A DNA stretch of 64,000 nucleotides from Georgenia sp. EYE_87 (GTDB taxonomy: Bacteria; Actinomycetota; Actinomycetes; Actinomycetales; Actinomycetaceae): positions 1 through 64,000 of the forward strand of contig NZ_JAHXNL010000011.1 of assembly GCF_023148685.1 (NCBI RefSeq), given 5' to 3'. Positions 38,088-44,662 of the stretch are shown here, piece by piece. The translations under genes were made by a program, and so were the position numbers. Below the pieces are notes generated by a model that saw only the letters and a list, made by a program, of their open reading frames with translations, did not search any database and had not been told where the DNA came from. Every line of letters starts with the position of its first letter. Position 1 is the stretch's first letter.

Positions 38088-38321
38088 ATGGCCTCTTCCT
38101 CCCGTGCCGGATCGCGTCCTCACCTACCCAACAGCCCCTTCAACGCCTCACGCATCGTGCCCGACGCCGAGCCGATCCCGGTCGGTGCGCAGCTGTGCCA
38201 CGACCGGCACGGTCTGGGCCGCGTGATCGCGCTCGACGGCGCGACGTCGGTGATCGTCGACTTCGGCAACGGGGACCGGCGCCGCGTCGCCATCGACAGC
38301 CCCCGCATCGAGCGCCTCTGA
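38088..38321 (+). CDS. Small conserved hypothetical protein, 77 residues
   Basis: Starts MASSSRAGSRPHLP at ATG 38088. The C-terminal half (GAQLCHDRHGLGRVIALDGA, then VIVDFGNGDRRRVAI) looks like a small beta-barrel of SH3/KOW type, in which GLGRVI and VDFG frame short strands. I recognise no named family. It ends three bases before the convergent DUF429-RelA fusion gene; a weak TTCACATCTCGG stretch upstream may hold its promoter. Confidence 0.7.
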   Translation: MASSSRAGSRPHLPNSPFNASRIVPDAEPIPVGAQLCHDRHGLGRVIALDGATSVIVDFGNGDRRRVAIDSPRIERL

Positions 38322-38324
38322 CGC

Positions 38325-40202
38325 TCAGCCGCGCAGCTTCTCCAGCCTCGCCCGGAGCGCCTCGGCGCGCCGGGCGTTGCCGTGCAGCGCCACGTACCGG
38401 TCACCGAACACCTCCAGCAGCGCGTCGTCGAGGCGACGGACCGCGCCGGGCGGGTACCGGTAGCCCATCCGTCGGCTGATCGCCGCGCTGTCCACGTCGC
38501 CCAGCACCTCACCGAGCTCCTGCAGGGACGCGATGCCCAGCTCGAGCAGCAGACCCGACACCCAGGCGTAGTGGTCGGTCCTCGACCAGCCCGCCCCGGG
38601 GAACCGGCCGGCGAGGAAGGCGGCGAGATCCTGCGCGCTGATGCGCGGGTCGCCGGCGTCCCCGCGGAGCTGGTGGCCGGTCATGCTCTCCTGAAGGCGG
38701 TCCCGGATCGCGGAGAACTCCCGGTCCGCGAGGTCCAGCAGGCCGGCGGCGAGCGTGAAGCGCCGGTCGAGGTCGGGTGCGTACTCCTCGGGCACGGTGC
38801 CCTTGTAGCGGATGTCGTGCTCGAACTCGGCCCAGGCGTGCTGCAGCACCGTGCGCACCTGGACCGACGCCGGGCGCCCCGCGAGGCTGGCGTACTCGGG
38901 GTCGTGCGAGCGGGCGTCGTCGAGCTGGACGAGGACGTGCTGGCTGGAGTAGCCGAACCGTCCCTCCTGGGCCGTCTCCAGCCCCATGTCACGGTGGAGC
39001 AGGACGGTGAGCTGGTCCGCGAGCAGGTCCACGACGGCCTGGACGTCACTGACCAGGTAGGTGATCACCCGCACGCCGACCTGGTCGGTGACCTGGCGCA
39101 GCGGGTCGGTGTAGACGGGCCGGCCGTCGGCCGTGCGAGCGGCCTTCCCGGCGAAGGACGCGACGGACTTCGCGCGCCCCGTGACCGTGAGGTAGTTGAT
39201 GCCCGCCTCGTCCAGCAGCGAGGTGATGAGCGCGACGTACTTCTCGGTGGCCCGCTCGAGGCTCGGGTACTGCGCGGCGTAGGCCTGCACGGCGTCGCGG
39301 ACGGGGTCGGCGACGGCGGGGTCGGCGACGGCGGGATCCGCCAGGCGTTCAGCGGCCGCGGGTCCGACGGCGGGTGCGGGGGCCGCGGGTCCGGCGGCGG
39401 GTTCCGCGGCCGCCGGTACTCCCGGGGGTGCAGCCGCGACGGGCTTCGAGGCCCGCGGTGCGGGCGCGTGCCCCTCGGGGAGGGTCGGCGTGACGATGTA
39501 GCCCGTGGCGAGGTCGCCGTAGGTGGTGGTGCGCTCCGGGTGGGCGACGACGAACCGGGCGATGTACGCGCACACGACGGCGTCGATCTGGTCCTCGGCG
39601 CGGCGCAGCTCGCTCTTGCGGGCGGCGCCCCGCACCTGCGCCACCAGCTGGCGCCAGCCCTCGTGACCGCTCACCACCATCGGGGTCTCGGCGTCCGCGA
39701 GACCCTCGAGGTGCGCGATCAGCTCGAGCATCGCCGCGCGGAGCTGGGGCACGGTCCGGCCCGGGCGCTGCTTGTACTTGAGCACCCGGCCCAGGCGGAA
39801 GAGGGCGATGGTCGCCGGGTGGGGGTAGACCTCGATGGCCCGGCGGGGGCGGCGGGAGGCGGGGTTGATGTCGAGGCCCAGCGCCTTGGCCAGCCGCGCC
39901 CCCCGGGGCGTCTCCGCGAACTCGGGCTTGCCGGTGTTGGCAGGGTGCGCCCCGGCGTCGAAGCGCGCGAAGTCCCGGTTGAGCGCCGCCTCGCAGGGCC
40001 GGTTGCCGGTGGGGTTGACGACCACCAGCGGGGCGTCGACGGCCACGAGGACGGGCGTCTCCCGGAGGTCCGCGAGGGCGGCGACGATCGACTCGTCGGT
40101 GTCGTGCGCCGAGAGGTGGACCAGGCGTCCGCCGTCGTCCAGGACGGCGAGGCCGGTGGGGCGGACCTCGCCCCAGGCGAGGTCGATGCCGATGTAGTGC
40201 AT
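38325..40202 (-). CDS. Fusion of DUF429 (RNase H-like) and RelA/SpoT (p)ppGpp synthetase domain
   Basis: 625 residues in one uninterrupted frame. Residues 1-235 are DUF429, a predicted RNase H-fold nuclease: MHYIGIDLAWGE with D7, VAVDAPL with D56, and AEDQIDAVVCAY with D207. Residues 236-305 are an Ala/Pro-rich linker containing an AVADP repeat. Residues 315-470 are a RelA/SpoT synthetase domain: R343-x-K-S-x2-S-x3-K353, D373 in TDQVGVR, GYSSQH (417-422), and QVRT then HAWAEFEHDIRYK (455-467). The usual Glu of the ExQxRT motif is Ser446. A helical C-terminal region (520-625, DHYAWVSGLLLELGI and YRYPPGAVRRLDDALL) follows. No hydrolase (HD) domain. Expected, if active: GTP/GDP pyrophosphorylation linked to nucleic-acid recognition or cleavage. 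Transcribed alone. Confidence 0.88.
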   Translation of the reverse strand: MHYIGIDLAWGEVRPTGLAVLDDGGRLVHLSAHDTDESIVAALADLRETPVLVAVDAPLVVVNPTGNRPCEAALNRDFARFDAGAHPANTGKPEFAETPRGARLAKALGLDINPASRRPRRAIEVYPHPATIALFRLGRVLKYKQRPGRTVPQLRAAMLELIAHLEGLADAETPMVVSGHEGWRQLVAQVRGAARKSELRRAEDQIDAVVCAYIARFVVAHPERTTTYGDLATGYIVTPTLPEGHAPAPRASKPVAAAPPGVPAAAEPAAGPAAPAPAVGPAAAERLADPAVADPAVADPVRDAVQAYAAQYPSLERATEKYVALITSLLDEAGINYLTVTGRAKSVASFAGKAARTADGRPVYTDPLRQVTDQVGVRVITYLVSDVQAVVDLLADQLTVLLHRDMGLETAQEGRFGYSSQHVLVQLDDARSHDPEYASLAGRPASVQVRTVLQHAWAEFEHDIRYKGTVPEEYAPDLDRRFTLAAGLLDLADREFSAIRDRLQESMTGHQLRGDAGDPRISAQDLAAFLAGRFPGAGWSRTDHYAWVSGLLLELGIASLQELGEVLGDVDSAAISRRMGYRYPPGAVRRLDDALLEVFGDRYVALHGNARRAEALRARLEKLRG

Positions 40203-40293
40203 GGGGTCACTCTGCCCTGCCGCGCGGGGTGCGGCTGACGGGCGGCCCGCCGGCCGTCCGCGTGCGCGGGACGGGCCGGGGGCCGCCGCCGGG

Positions 40294-41415
40294 TCAGAGG
40301 TGGCGCTCGTCCGGCCCGTGGTAGGCGCTGAGCGGGCGGATCAGGGCGTTGGACGCCAGCTGCTCCATGATGTGCGCGGTCCAGCCGGTGATGCGGGCGG
40401 CGACGAAGAGCGGGGTGAAGGTCGCCGTGTCGAAGCCCATGAGGTGGTAGGCGGGGCCGGAGGGGTAGTCGAGGTTCGGCTGGATGTTCTTCCGCTCGAC
40501 CATCGCCTTCTCGAGGGTGTCGTACAGCGCGGCGAGGTCGGGGCGGTCGTAGTGCGCGACGAGGGTGTCCAGCGCGGCCTTCATGGTGGGGACGCGCGAG
40601 TCGCCGTGCTTGTACACGCGGTGCCCGAAGCCCATGATCTTGCGCTTCTCGGCGAGCGCACGATCCAGCCAGGCCTCGGCGTTCTCGGCGGTGCCGATCT
40701 CCTCGAGCACGTGCATGACGGCCTCGTTCGCCCCGCCGTGGAGCGGGCCCTTGAGCGCGCCGATCGCCCCGACGACGGCGGAGTACAGGTCCGACAGCGT
40801 CGAGGTGATCACCCGGGCGGTGAAGGTGGAGGCGTTGAAGGAGTGCTCCGCGTAGAGGATCAGGGAGACCCGGAAGGCGTCGACGACGACGTCCGCGGGC
40901 ACCTCCCCGAACGTCATGTGCAGGAAGTTCTCGGTGTACCCCAGGTCCTCGCGGGGCTCGACGAGCTCCTGCCCGCGGCGGCGCCGCTGGTCGTAGGCGA
41001 CGACGGCGGGGATCTGGGCGAGCAGCCGGACGGACTTGGCGAAGTTGGCCTCCGGGGAGGCATCCTCGGCCGTCGGGTCGGTGGCCCCGACGACCGACAC
41101 GGCCGTGCGGAGCACGTCCATCGGGTGCGCGGTGGTGGGCACGAGGTCGATCGCGGCGCGCACCTCGGGGGCCAGGGCCCGCTGGGTGCGGCCGGCCTCC
41201 TCCAGCCCAGCGAGCTGCTCGGGGGTGGGTAGCTCCCCGTGCCAGAGCAGGTACGCGACCTCCTCGAAGGTGCACCGCGCGGCGAGCTCCTGGACGGGGT
41301 AGCCGCGGTAGAGCAGGGAGTTGGTGTCGGGGTTGACCTTGGAGACGGCGGTCGTGTCGGCGACGACGCCGACCAGCCCCTTGCGGATCTCGGGCTCGGT
41401 CTGGGTCTGGCTCAT
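40294..41415 (-). CDS. prpC: 2-methylcitrate synthase / citrate synthase
   Basis: 373 residues. Condenses propionyl-CoA with oxaloacetate to 2-methylcitrate. Catalytic residues: His in ILYAEHSFNAST and GPLHGGANEAVM, and Asp region near the C-terminus; GFGHRVYKHGDSR is the CoA-site block. Placement after prpD and prpB with a 36-bp gap identifies it as PrpC rather than the TCA enzyme. ATG 41415 follows AAGGAGCGAG. Confidence 0.95.
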   Translation of the reverse strand: MSQTQTEPEIRKGLVGVVADTTAVSKVNPDTNSLLYRGYPVQELAARCTFEEVAYLLWHGELPTPEQLAGLEEAGRTQRALAPEVRAAIDLVPTTAHPMDVLRTAVSVVGATDPTAEDASPEANFAKSVRLLAQIPAVVAYDQRRRRGQELVEPREDLGYTENFLHMTFGEVPADVVVDAFRVSLILYAEHSFNASTFTARVITSTLSDLYSAVVGAIGALKGPLHGGANEAVMHVLEEIGTAENAEAWLDRALAEKRKIMGFGHRVYKHGDSRVPTMKAALDTLVAHYDRPDLAALYDTLEKAMVERKNIQPNLDYPSGPAYHLMGFDTATFTPLFVAARITGWTAHIMEQLASNALIRPLSAYHGPDERHL

Positions 41416-41451
41416 GTCTCGCTCCTTCGCGGGCAGTGGCGGCAGAACTGG

Positions 41452-42354
41452 TCAGTCGGTGCGGACGGTGAAGTTGAAGATGCCGGTGTCGAAGTGGTTG
41501 TACGCCTCGTAGTCGAGGAGCTCGTAGAGCCGGGCGCGGTGCTGCATGTTGCCCAGCTCGGAGGTCAGGGACCCCTCGCGCCGGATGGTCTCCAGGCCGC
41601 GCTCGGCGGCGCCCATCGCCAGGCGCAGGAGCGAGACCGGGAAGATCACGATCGCGACGCCGGCGTCGGCCAGCTGCTCGGTGGTGAACAGCTCGGACTT
41701 GCCGAACTCGGTCATGTTCGCCAGGACGGGCACGTCGACGGCGGAGGCGATGGCCTCGAACTCGGCGAGGTCGCGCATCGCCTCCGGGAAGATCGCGTCC
41801 GCCCCGGCGTCCACGAGCGCCCGGGCCCGGTCGGCGGCGGCGTCGAAGCCGTCGACCCCGCGGACGTCCGTGCGGGCCATGATCAGCAGGTTCGGGTCGC
41901 GGCGGGCGTCGGCGGCGGCCCGGATCCGCTTGACGGCGGTGCCGGTGTCGACCACCTGCTTGCCGTCCAGGTGGCCGCACCGCTTGGGGTTGACCTGGTC
42001 CTCGATGTGCAGGCCGGCCACCCCGGCGTCCTCGAGCGCCTGGACGGTGCGGGCGACGTTCATCGGCTCGCCGAAGCCGGTGTCCGCGTCCACCAGGGCC
42101 GGCAGGTCGGTCATCCGGGCGATCTGCTGGGACCGGCCCGCCACCTCGGTCAGGGTCGTCAGCCCGATGTCGGGCAGGCCCAGGTCGGCGGAGAGCACCG
42201 CGCCGGAGATGTAGACCCCGTCGAACCCCTTGTCCTGGATCAGCCTCGCCGAGAGGGGGTTGAAGGCGCCGGGGAAGAGCAGCGTGTCGCCGGAGGCGAG
42301 CCGCTCGCGGAGACGGGCCCGCTTGTCGGCGGCGGTGGTGGCGGAGTACAGCAT
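41452..42354 (-). CDS. prpB: Methylisocitrate lyase
   Basis: 300 residues of the isocitrate lyase/PEP mutase superfamily. Cleaves 2-methylisocitrate to pyruvate and succinate. The catalytic loop NPKRCGHLDGK holds the essential Cys; LVDADTGFGEPMNVARTV and GLHIEDQ are metal and substrate sites. ATG 42354 overlaps the prpD stop (ATGA). Confidence 0.96.
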   Translation of the reverse strand: MLYSATTAADKRARLRERLASGDTLLFPGAFNPLSARLIQDKGFDGVYISGAVLSADLGLPDIGLTTLTEVAGRSQQIARMTDLPALVDADTGFGEPMNVARTVQALEDAGVAGLHIEDQVNPKRCGHLDGKQVVDTGTAVKRIRAAADARRDPNLLIMARTDVRGVDGFDAAADRARALVDAGADAIFPEAMRDLAEFEAIASAVDVPVLANMTEFGKSELFTTEQLADAGVAIVIFPVSLLRLAMGAAERGLETIRREGSLTSELGNMQHRARLYELLDYEAYNHFDTGIFNFTVRTD

Positions 42355-43880
42355 CAGAAGATCCCCCCGGGAACGGTCACGGTGTCGAGGTAGCCCTCCG
42401 GGGCCACCACGGTCAGCTCGGCGAGCTCGGCGGCGCCGAGCTCGGGCAGGCGCTGGGCGACGTCGAGGAACCGCTCGACCTCCGCAGGCTCCAGGACGCC
42501 GTCGGCGAGGGTGCGGAACTTGGCCACGTACTGCTCGCGGCCGAAGGGACGGGCGCCCAGCGGGTGGGCGTCGGCCACGGCGATCTCCTCCACGATCCGT
42601 CCGCCGTCGGCCAGGGTGATCTCCAGCCGGCCGCCGAAGGCCTTCTCGTCCGGGTCCGTCGCGTGGTAGCGCCGGGTCCACTCCGGGTCCTCCGCCGTCG
42701 TGATCTTGCGCCACAGGGCCACGGTGTCCGGGCGGGCGGCCCGCTCGGGGGCGTAGGAGCGGACGTGGTGCCAGGCCCCGTCCTGCAGGGCGACGGCCAG
42801 GATGTACGGGATCGAGTGGTCCAGGGTCTCCCGGGAGGCGGTCGGGTCGTACTTCTGCGGGTCGTTCGCGCCCGAGCCGATCACGAAGTGGGTGTGGTGC
42901 GAGGTGTGCAGCACGATCGACTCGACGTTCTCGGCGTCGCGCAGGAAGGGGTAGTGGGTGCCGATCCGGCGGGCCAGGTCGATGAGCGCCTGGGCCTGGT
43001 ACTCCGCGGAGTGCTCCTTGGTGTAGGTGTCCAGGATCGCGGTGCGCGGTTCGCCGGGCCCCGGCAGGACCACGTCGTAGGCGGCGTCGGGGCCGTCGAG
43101 CAGCCAGGCGACGACGCCGTCCTCGCCCTCGTAGATCGGCGTCGGGGACGTCTGGCCCCGCATGGCCCGGTCCACGGCCTCGATCGCCACCTTCCCGGCG
43201 AACGCCGGGGCGTAGGCCTTCCAGGTGGAGATCTGCCCCTTGCGGGACTGCCGGGTGGCGGTGGTGGTGTGCAGGGCCTGCCCGATCGCGTGGAACACCA
43301 CCTCGGTGTCGAGCCCGAGCAGCGTGCCGATACCCGCGGCGGCCGAGGGGCCCAGATGGGCCACGTGGTCGATCTTGTGCTGGTGCAGGCTGATCGCCCG
43401 GACGAGATCCACCTGGATCTCGTAGCCGGTGACGATGCCGCGCACCAGCTCGCGCCCGGTCAGGCCGCGCCGCTCGGCCAGGTGCTGGGCGACGGCGAGG
43501 ATCGGCGGGATGTTGTCGCCGGGGTGGGAGTACTCCGCGGCGAGGAAGGTGTCGTGGTAGTCCAGCTCGCGCACGGCCACGCCGTTGGCCCACGCCGCCC
43601 ACTCGGGGCTGACCCGGGTGTCGAGCGGGGCGCCGAAGACGGTCGAGCCGGGGCTGTAGGGGTGGGCCAGCGCCTGGGCGCGGGCCGCCGCCGGGGGCGT
43701 GCGCACCAGCGAAGCGGTGGCCACCGCCGCGTTGTCGATGACCCGGTTGACCACCATCTCGGTCACGGCGTCGGTGACCTCGACCGGGTCGGTGGCGAGC
43801 TCGGCCAGCTTCCAGGCGAGCTGCTCCTCGCGGGGGAGGTTGTCGGCGCTGGGGTGGACGCGAAGGTGGTGGGTGTTCAC
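42354..43880 (-). CDS. prpD: 2-methylcitrate dehydratase (MmgE/PrpD family)
   Basis: 508 residues. Dehydrates 2-methylcitrate to 2-methylaconitate. Family blocks: [20 protein letters not shown] near the active site, [16 protein letters not shown], and [23 protein letters not shown] 43880 overlaps the gntR stop (GTGA). Middle gene of the gntR-prpD-prpB-prpC operon; no acnD or prpF is seen, as expected when the classical PrpD route is used. Confidence 0.95.
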
Positions 43881-44569
43881 CGGGCTGCTCCAAGGGTGAG
43901 GGTGGGAAGGGACGGGTCCGTCGCCCGGCCGCCGTCGGCCAGGCTCGTGAGGATCGTGGTCAGGCTCGCGCGCAGGTGGACGGCGGTGGCCTGGGCGGCG
44001 AGGGTCTCGTTGCCGTCGGCGATCGCCTCGACGATGAGCAGGTGCTCGTGGGCGGCGCGCACGAGACGGTCGGGGTTGTCGCGGGAGAGCCGGCGCGCGC
44101 GGGCCACGTGGGTGCGCAGCGAGGCGAGCGCGCGCAGCAGGTACGGGCTGGCGGCGGCCTCGTCGATCGCGGCGTCGAGCTCGGTGACGAGCGCGTAGTA
44201 GGCGCGCCGGTCCGGGTCCTCGGTGCTCAGCAGCGCGGGCGCCTCGGCGAAGCGGTCGCGCAGCGCGGCGAACGGGGCGGCGCTGCGCCGGCGGGCGGCC
44301 AGCCGGGCGGCCTGCGTCTCGAGGGCCTCGCGCAGCTCGAAGAGGTGCTCGACGTCGGCCGCGCGCAGGTCCGAGACGACGAGGGTGCGCCCCTTCCCGA
44401 CCACGGCGAGCCCGTCGGCGGCCAGCCGGCCGAGGGCCTCGCGCAGGGGGGTGCGGGAGACGCCGAGCCGGTCGGCCTGCTCGACCTCGGACAGGACCGC
44501 GCCCGGCAGGAGGCGCCACGAGACGATGTCCTCCCGGAGGGACTCGTAGACCCGCTCGCTCGCGCGCAC
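43877..44569 (-). CDS. GntR-family (FadR/FCD-type) regulator of the prp operon
   Basis: 230 residues. N-terminal winged helix [20 protein letters not shown], then [20 protein letters not shown], and a C-terminal all-helical FCD ligand domain with metal/ligand histidines ([26 protein letters not shown]). GTG 44569 is chosen because upstream codons cover the operator. It probably binds a methylcitrate-cycle intermediate and controls its own operon through the two operators at 44598 and 44650. Confidence 0.93.
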
Positions 44570-44597
44570 GCCCTCACCGTAGCCCGGGCCGACTGAG

Positions 44598-44609
44598 TTT
44601 GTATACAAA
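44598..44609. promoter_or_regulatory. GntR operator 1 (TTTGTATACAAA)
   Basis: A perfect 12-bp palindrome in a very GC-rich surrounding, 29 bp upstream of the gntR start. It matches the TTGTATACAA-type sites of FCD-group GntR proteins. Confidence 0.75.
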
Positions 44610-44648
44610 AGCAGGGAGACCGGCCGCCCCGGGCCGGGGGGCAGAGGG

Positions 44649-44662
44649 ATTGTGCACACAAA
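44649..44662. promoter_or_regulatory. GntR operator 2 (TTGTG-CA-CACAA)
   Basis: Perfect 5-bp inverted arms with a 2-bp centre, about 41 bp from operator 1 and just downstream of the opposing membrane-protein gene's stop. The spacing (about four helical turns) suits cooperative binding. Confidence 0.6.

Follow-up and report, generated by a model that had tools for sequence, protein, structure and literature searches.

A DUF429–alarmone synthetase fusion in Georgenia, a probable orthologue of mycobacterial RelZ

The relZ-like gene and its neighbourhood

The window analysed here comprises 64,000 nucleotides of a contig of the actinobacterium Georgenia sp. EYE_87. On its minus strand, a single reading frame begins with an ATG at 40202, reaches its stop codon within the coordinates at 38325 and encodes a protein of 625 amino acids, with the following features at the locus:

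38325..40202, minus strand: relZ-like gene, 625 amino acids (DUF429, linker, SYNTH and helical C-terminus), from the open reading frame, Pfam and homologues
39519..40190, minus strand: DUF429 module, residues 5–228, probable RNase H-like fold, from Pfam, conservation, an AlphaFold model (pLDDT 95.3) and weak fold matches
39306..39464, minus strand: Ala/Pro-rich linker, approximately residues 247–299, mostly disordered in the model and variable in length, from the alignment and the model
38682..39305, minus strand: small-alarmone-synthetase module, approximately residues 300–507, from Pfam, the model and Foldseek
within the latter module, minus strand: helix (residues 300–333), SYNTH core (342–468) and helix (472–507), from the model and Pfam
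38865..38867, minus strand: codon of Ser446, at the position of the Mg-binding Glu (ExQIRT, Syn4) in other synthetases, from the alignment and PMC7983052
38328..38681, minus strand: helical C-terminal region, residues 508–625, common to DUF429-free relatives, from the model and the alignment
40294..41415, minus strand: gene of the citrate synthase family (PrpC-like), the upstream neighbour, separated from the relZ start by 91 bp

The initial annotation of this DNA described a 625-residue frame joining DUF429 to a RelA/SpoT domain and proposed a Pfam search as a check. The frame is borne out, and both profiles match the minus-strand protein above their cut-offs: DUF429 (PF04250) covers residues 5–228 (E 3e-29, 102.7 bits against a cut-off of 23), and RelA_SpoT (PF04607) covers residues 342–468 (E 9.8e-15, 55.3 bits against a cut-off of 27). 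No match to HD, TGS or ACT domains was found in the 625-residue protein by Pfam, and the NCBIfam model GTPPhKinYjbM aligns at 340–506 far under its cut-off (53.5 versus 320 bits). The full-length AlphaFold model, built from 42 sequences (mean pLDDT 85, pTM 0.47), displays two confident parts and a helical C-terminus, with pLDDT below 50 over linker residues 252–297, in agreement with the Ala/Pro linker and helical C-terminal region described initially. With so low a pTM, the model does not show how the parts are arranged with respect to one another. A 618-amino acid open frame lies antisense to relZ (38382–40238, plus strand), probably as a by-product of the high G+C content; it was rejected as the gene meant, since the Pfam matches fall on the minus strand.

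A scan of genome contigs yielded 448 stretches encoding relatives, of which the best 80 were kept. All 80 carry both halves in one frame, a figure that describes the best of 448 candidates and is not a rate. An assembly join as the source of the fusion is unlikely, because the same one-frame fusion occurs at these 80 homologous loci. Two separate genes in place of the fusion, the outcome named initially as contrary to the proposal, were approached in one sampled genome (G272, with adjacent halves in different frames), against 80 fused loci out of 80.

A methylcitrate-cycle-like cluster (40294–44659, minus strand) adjoins relZ on its upstream side in the same orientation; it encodes a GntR/FCD regulator, PrpD, a PEP mutase/ICL family protein (PrpB-like) and the PrpC-like citrate synthase, after which relZ follows. 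No terminator-like site was found on the relZ strand in 38200–41600, and relZ is possibly co-transcribed with the PrpC-like gene. A citrate synthase gene adjoins relZ in three of the seven Georgenia genomes with the fusion (also in G002 and G004; L089, L009/L117), and was not found beside it within the short flanks available in G001, G003, G007 and G008 (L090, L091, L092, L094). Across the 80 loci, methylcitrate genes occur at one and an ABC-transporter match at ten. The commonest flanking clusters (23 and 18 loci) are both antisense overlaps of the gene, and the next one is found at 15 loci. No flanking frame of at least 80 amino acids recurs broadly across the 80 loci, some of which are cut by contig ends. 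A family-wide operon partner was consequently rejected, and in this varied context the R-loop role considered below finds no support from the neighbours.

Conserved and altered sites in the two halves

The carboxylates D7, D56, E124, E203, D204 and D207 are conserved in alignments of the DUF429 half. D7, D56 and D207, which had been singled out initially, are present in 81, 80 and 81 of 81 aligned proteins, respectively (the Georgenia protein and 80 homologues), and D204 is invariant among them. In a larger set of 161 fused frames, which includes near-copies of loci reached by two routes (132–133 are distinct), D7, E71, E124, E203, D204 and D207 are identical throughout, and D56 is kept in 160.

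Modelled alone from 40 aligned rows, the DUF429 half reaches a pLDDT of 95.3. Among the best 50 of 460 Foldseek matches to this model (E up to 10) are TEFM, RuvX, Ydc2, SPT6 and the phage TerL nuclease, all weak (8e-4 and above), as well as sugar kinases and other actin-like folds, with no RNase HII in these 50. No solved chain matching the DUF429 profile was found by a PDB search. The structure search is thus weak evidence that the DUF429 half may adopt an RNase H fold; DUF429 has been grouped in clade D with RuvC, YqgF, Tex and Spt6 (NAR 2014, PMC3985635). Membership of the RnhB family was rejected, since the RNase_HII profile (PF01351) has no match in the 625-residue protein. The only RNase_HII match of the Georgenia genome sits on another contig; the genome also has two RNase H matches, and no second DUF429 match was found in it. 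Stand-alone DUF429 proteins (COG2410/4328/4923; PADLOC PDC-S44) share the module and its carboxylates, but they carry no synthetase.

The second half is of the small-alarmone-synthetase type, which agrees with the synthetase-only domain proposed initially. Its nearest solved chains are small alarmone synthetases of Streptococcus and B. subtilis, and the best fold matches of the model are B. subtilis SAS1/RelQ chains (E about 1e-9), along with other small alarmone synthetases. R343, K345, S349, K353, D373, R378, Y418, H422, Q448 and R450 are invariant in the 81 aligned proteins, and these ten residues, together with E459, E461, H462 and K467, are identical in all 161 fused frames, near-copies included. 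Peculiar to the Georgenia SYNTH domain are H403 and Q421, where the remaining 80 of the 81 proteins carry Asp and Arg, respectively.

Position 446 departs from this pattern. Instead of the usual Glu of the ExQIRT motif, 44 of the 81 aligned proteins have Gln, 30 have Ser, 6 have Ala and 1 has Thr; the Georgenia protein has Ser446, so that its Syn4 differs from an ExQIRT motif with the Mg-binding Glu. This Glu is also absent, with Ser, Gln, Ala or Thr instead, from 160 of the 161 fused frames, near-copies included. The sole frame that keeps it, L129 of genome G133, reads VEIQIRT. L129 sits on a long branch, where an ancestral Glu and a reversion are not told apart. More distant synthetases mostly keep the Glu (L101–L114, L243 and L248), while L100 has Ser. 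From the alignment, we take the Glu of ExQIRT to correspond to RelP E174 and RelSeq E323. These two residues are described as the catalytic Glu in the Mg site, which they form with an Asp (PMC7983052). No paper naming RelQ E139 was found in the literature search.

RelQ/SAS1 (B. subtilis YjbM) shares the SYNTH fold and most motif residues, but it has the Glu and lacks both DUF429 and the long C-terminus. The actRel/RelS proteins without DUF429 (RelS of C. glutamicum and, classed here by resemblance, L102, L103 and L248) share the SYNTH core and the helical C-terminal extension, although they keep the ExQIRT Glu, lack DUF429 and are 33–39% identical. The Georgenia genome itself encodes a probable long Rel (778-residue frame) and a third RelA_SpoT protein (L003, G000:C1:684090), whose 364-residue frame has an intact ELQVRT with the Glu.

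Distribution, separation and apparent re-fusion of the halves

Full-length homologues with 55–73% identity are encoded in other Georgenia and in Ornithinimicrobium, Nakamurella, Nocardioides, Cellulomonas, Kineosporia and Mycolicibacterium, as seen among the best 80 of 448 stretches; a phylogenetic survey had been suggested initially. The fusion is present in seven of nine Georgenia genomes, this one included, and in none of 28 other genomes of the family. In the class sample, 12 of 197 genomes, the Georgenia genome among them, carry it at full length. Carriage of the whole fusion by mobile elements was rejected, since no match covering over 80% of the query was found in 50,697 phage and 72,556 plasmid records; part-matches occur in 16 and 41 of them, respectively.

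The two halves are frequently found apart. The 118 Nocardioides genomes comprise 71 with the fusion, 37 with a synthetase lacking an in-frame DUF429 (DUF429 being present elsewhere in G272, G346 and G349), 4 with DUF429 only and 6 without any match. Among 148 mycobacterial genomes, 45 have the fusion (truncated at a contig end in G419), 78 have DUF429 without a synthetase match (at least 5 of them partial) and 25 have neither. These counts apply at a match limit of 1e-40, beyond which more distant halves may be missed, and, as for the class sample, with about 6–11 first-look candidates scored per genome.

The loci fetched were chosen from these lists: 20 carry a separate synthetase, 20 are DUF429-only mycobacterial loci and 20 are others. 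Within the fetched stretches, DUF429 lies near a separate synthetase at 1 of 27 loci (L197 of G272), and no synthetase remnant was found beside DUF429 at any of 23 DUF429-only loci. At L197, the two halves are adjacent in overlapping, different frames; either the pair is split in nature or a frameshift parts them. The near solo synthetases keep all the listed SYNTH residues except 446, where they have Ser or Gln. Of 42 solo DUF429 frames, 39 keep all six carboxylates; the other three, copies of the L055 gene, carry E203 to D and D204 to G changes.

A careful tree of 59 synthetase halves needs seven changes of the fused/solo label, of which starred branches compel at least four, and the AU test rejects the grouping of all solo synthetases as one clade (p 1e-88). 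A quick tree of 91 DUF429 halves gathers every fused row into one clade (SH-aLRT 100), inside which solo rows are nested too. The trees hold chosen or random fused rows, 34 in the 59-half SYNTH tree, 59 of 133 in another SYNTH tree and 53 of 133 in the DUF429 tree; distant or long sequences (L100–L103, L243, L248 and L129, and in the 59-half tree also L133 and L135) were omitted from the SYNTH trees. The clades put to the AU tests were picked after a tree had been seen. Across 126 fused proteins, with six known swaps excluded, DUF429 and SYNTH distances co-vary (r 0.80, versus a maximum of 0.10 in 1000 permutations), a pattern that fits a single ancient fusion with later losses, although the trees are unrooted and do not formally tell gain of the fusion from its loss.

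The six exceptions belong to the 46 mycobacterial fused frames (copies included), in which they break the agreement between DUF429 and SYNTH distances. In L128, L190 and L192–L194, the DUF429 half is 74–80% identical to a solo paralogue, L055_D, and at most 61–63% identical to the DUF429 of other fusions, whereas the SYNTH half is 81–85% identical to that of an ordinary fusion, L176. L191 has a DUF429 79% identical to the solo L065_D and a SYNTH half 86% identical to that of L065. Trees with 19 of the 46 frames (L192 left out) place both groups within the paralogue clade for DUF429 (100/99), beside L055_D (100/91) and L065_D (98/86), respectively, and split them for SYNTH, one with L176 (99/96) and the other with L065, L084 and L178 (96/91). 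Keeping the 19 mycobacterial fused DUF429 rows together in one clade fails the AU test (p 1e-77), partly owing to solo rows nested among ordinary fusions. Taken together, these sequence comparisons indicate that the synthetase has apparently been joined twice to a second DUF429 paralogue in mycobacteria.

The solo paralogue, which has a short C-terminal tail in L055 and L065, stands in tandem with the fused gene in both (L055:6001-6735 and L065:7770-8486), upstream of it in one and downstream in the other. As paralogue and fused gene adjoin, deletion would provide a simple route to re-fusion.

Relationship to RelZ and possible activities

The DUF429–synthetase pairing has been described before. 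Some actRel members, including that of M. smegmatis, have an N-terminal DUF429 (Atkinson 2011, PMC3153485), and DUF429 with RelA/SpoT has been listed in Actinobacteria (NAR 2014, PMC3985635) and named in mycobacteria and Marmoricola (Ruwe 2017, PMC5566576). The MSMEG5849 product is stated to have RNase HII activity "through domain Duf429" (PMC4429107), and the RNase HII domain of MS_RHII-RSD was termed domain of unknown function 429 until 2012 (PMC4300193). The literature thus equates DUF429 with the "RNase HII" half of MSMEG_5849, which makes the Georgenia fusion the same pairing in another actinobacterium. The name "RNase HII" does suggest RnhB, to which DUF429 does not belong, the Georgenia genome having its RNase_HII match elsewhere. 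The identification of the domain in these papers (PMC3153485, PMC4429107, PMC4300193), along with the 55–58% full-length identity of fused Mycobacterium/Mycolicibacterium proteins to the Georgenia protein, nevertheless leaves a pairing distinct from MS_RHII-RSD with practically no chance of being correct. The initial annotation had assumed such a separate pairing and knew of no characterised protein with this layout; it was mistaken in both, given that RelZ of M. smegmatis has an N-terminal DUF429.

The two domains in one frame, the full-length homologues, the conserved residues of both halves, the co-varying distances and the published identity of the RNase HII half make it likely that the Georgenia protein is a RelZ orthologue, a dual-domain small alarmone synthetase. 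Against this stand the absent Mg-binding Glu, the frequent occurrence of one half alone, the lack of a recurring gene context and the weak fold evidence for DUF429. RelZ (MSMEG_5849) has the same order of an N-terminal DUF429 and then SAS and a comparable size (64.5 kDa versus 625 amino acids), a likeness drawn from published descriptions and the sequences of other fused mycobacterial proteins; the Georgenia protein differs in genus and in a linker longer than the family median. According to a review, M. smegmatis RelZ cleaves RNA–DNA hybrids and R-loops, makes pGpp, ppGpp and pppGpp with GMP preferred, is inhibited by ssRNA and pppGpp and forms a hexamer (PMC7591505), while its isolated halves are inactive (PMC7591505, PMC8622095). 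For the Georgenia protein and its relatives, the analysis itself establishes the architecture, the family, the SYNTH fold, the conservation of both active sites apart from the Glu expected at position 446, the distribution and the modularity of the halves in evolution. By analogy with RelZ, the protein is probably an RNA–DNA-hybrid nuclease and a pGpp/(p)ppGpp synthetase, and we infer that both enzymatic activities, R-loop removal, GMP preference, ssRNA inhibition and the hexamer would extend to it. The coupling of nuclease and alarmone synthesis suggested initially fits both the domains found and the activities reported for M. smegmatis.

Under stress, such as a replication–transcription conflict, the carboxylate cluster D7/D56/E203-D204-D207 of the DUF429 half would cut the RNA of RNA–DNA hybrids or R-loops, and the SYNTH half would take the beta-gamma pyrophosphate from ATP and attach it to the 3'-OH of GMP, GDP or GTP, giving pGpp/(p)ppGpp. 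Instead of being equivalent to RNase HII, DUF429 could sense nucleic acids or be an enzyme like RuvC/YqgF, with a structured nucleic acid or something else as its true substrate. Compatible with RelZ identity, this reading draws on the fold matches without RNase HII, the clade D grouping and the RNase HII and RNase H matches already encoded in the genome; it is rather unlikely in view of the hybrid and R-loop cleavage reported for M. smegmatis RelZ and of the sugar kinases and actin-like folds that also appear among the weak matches. A role in phage defence, in which recognition of nucleic acid sets off toxic nucleotide synthesis, is quite improbable. The DUF429 half matches the PADLOC candidate PDC-S44 (2.9e-81) and the SYNTH half, weakly, PDC-S33 (9.3e-8), both presumably untested candidates, and RSH toxSAS enzymes are known from toxin–antitoxin systems; however, among flanking frames of at least 80 amino acids there is no broadly recurring neighbour at the 80 loci, such as the conserved adjacent antitoxin gene of a toxSAS system, no phage or plasmid record searched matches over 80% of the fusion, and the fusion is common within whole genera.

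The altered position 446 bears on the other half. The synthetase might be weak, metal-atypical or dependent on another acceptor, which is again compatible with RelZ identity and is suggested by the replaced Glu in nearly all fused frames and by the place of RelP E174 and RelSeq E323 in the Mg site. This is unlikely, as the remaining 14 SYNTH positions examined show no change and M. smegmatis RelZ is reported to be active, with a Km of about 1 mM for GDP and GTP and with Mg2+-independent activity (Ruwe 2017, PMC5566576). Judging from its congeners, M. smegmatis RelZ would itself be without the Glu, and the missing residue is possibly tied to this Mg2+-independence. A further proposal, "cut and cap", is a very long shot: in a RelZ-type centre rebuilt without the second Mg ligand, RNA 3'-OH might be the physiological acceptor. 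RNase H-fold nucleases leave an RNA 3'-OH, and toxSAS enzymes pyrophosphorylate tRNA 3' ends; DUF429 would leave such an end and the SYNTH half would pyrophosphorylate it. If so, GMP preference and ssRNA inhibition would amount to acceptor competition, but the frequent separation of the halves argues against a strict coupling.

The lead of an unprecedented pairing is thereby corrected and recast as points about RelZ, a known enzyme type in M. smegmatis. Compared with the published RelZ descriptions, in the parts available, the Glu loss at 446, the natural separation of the halves and the apparent re-fusions are additions. The Mg-binding Glu is lost almost universally, which could account in structural terms for a synthetase reported to be Mg2+-independent. 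The natural one-half proteins bear directly on the claim that isolated halves are dead, and the solo halves of Nocardioides and mycobacteria sit badly with the inactivity reported for those of RelZ. Finally, the two apparent re-fusions suggest that the pairing of DUF429 with the synthetase is advantageous, though not obligatory.
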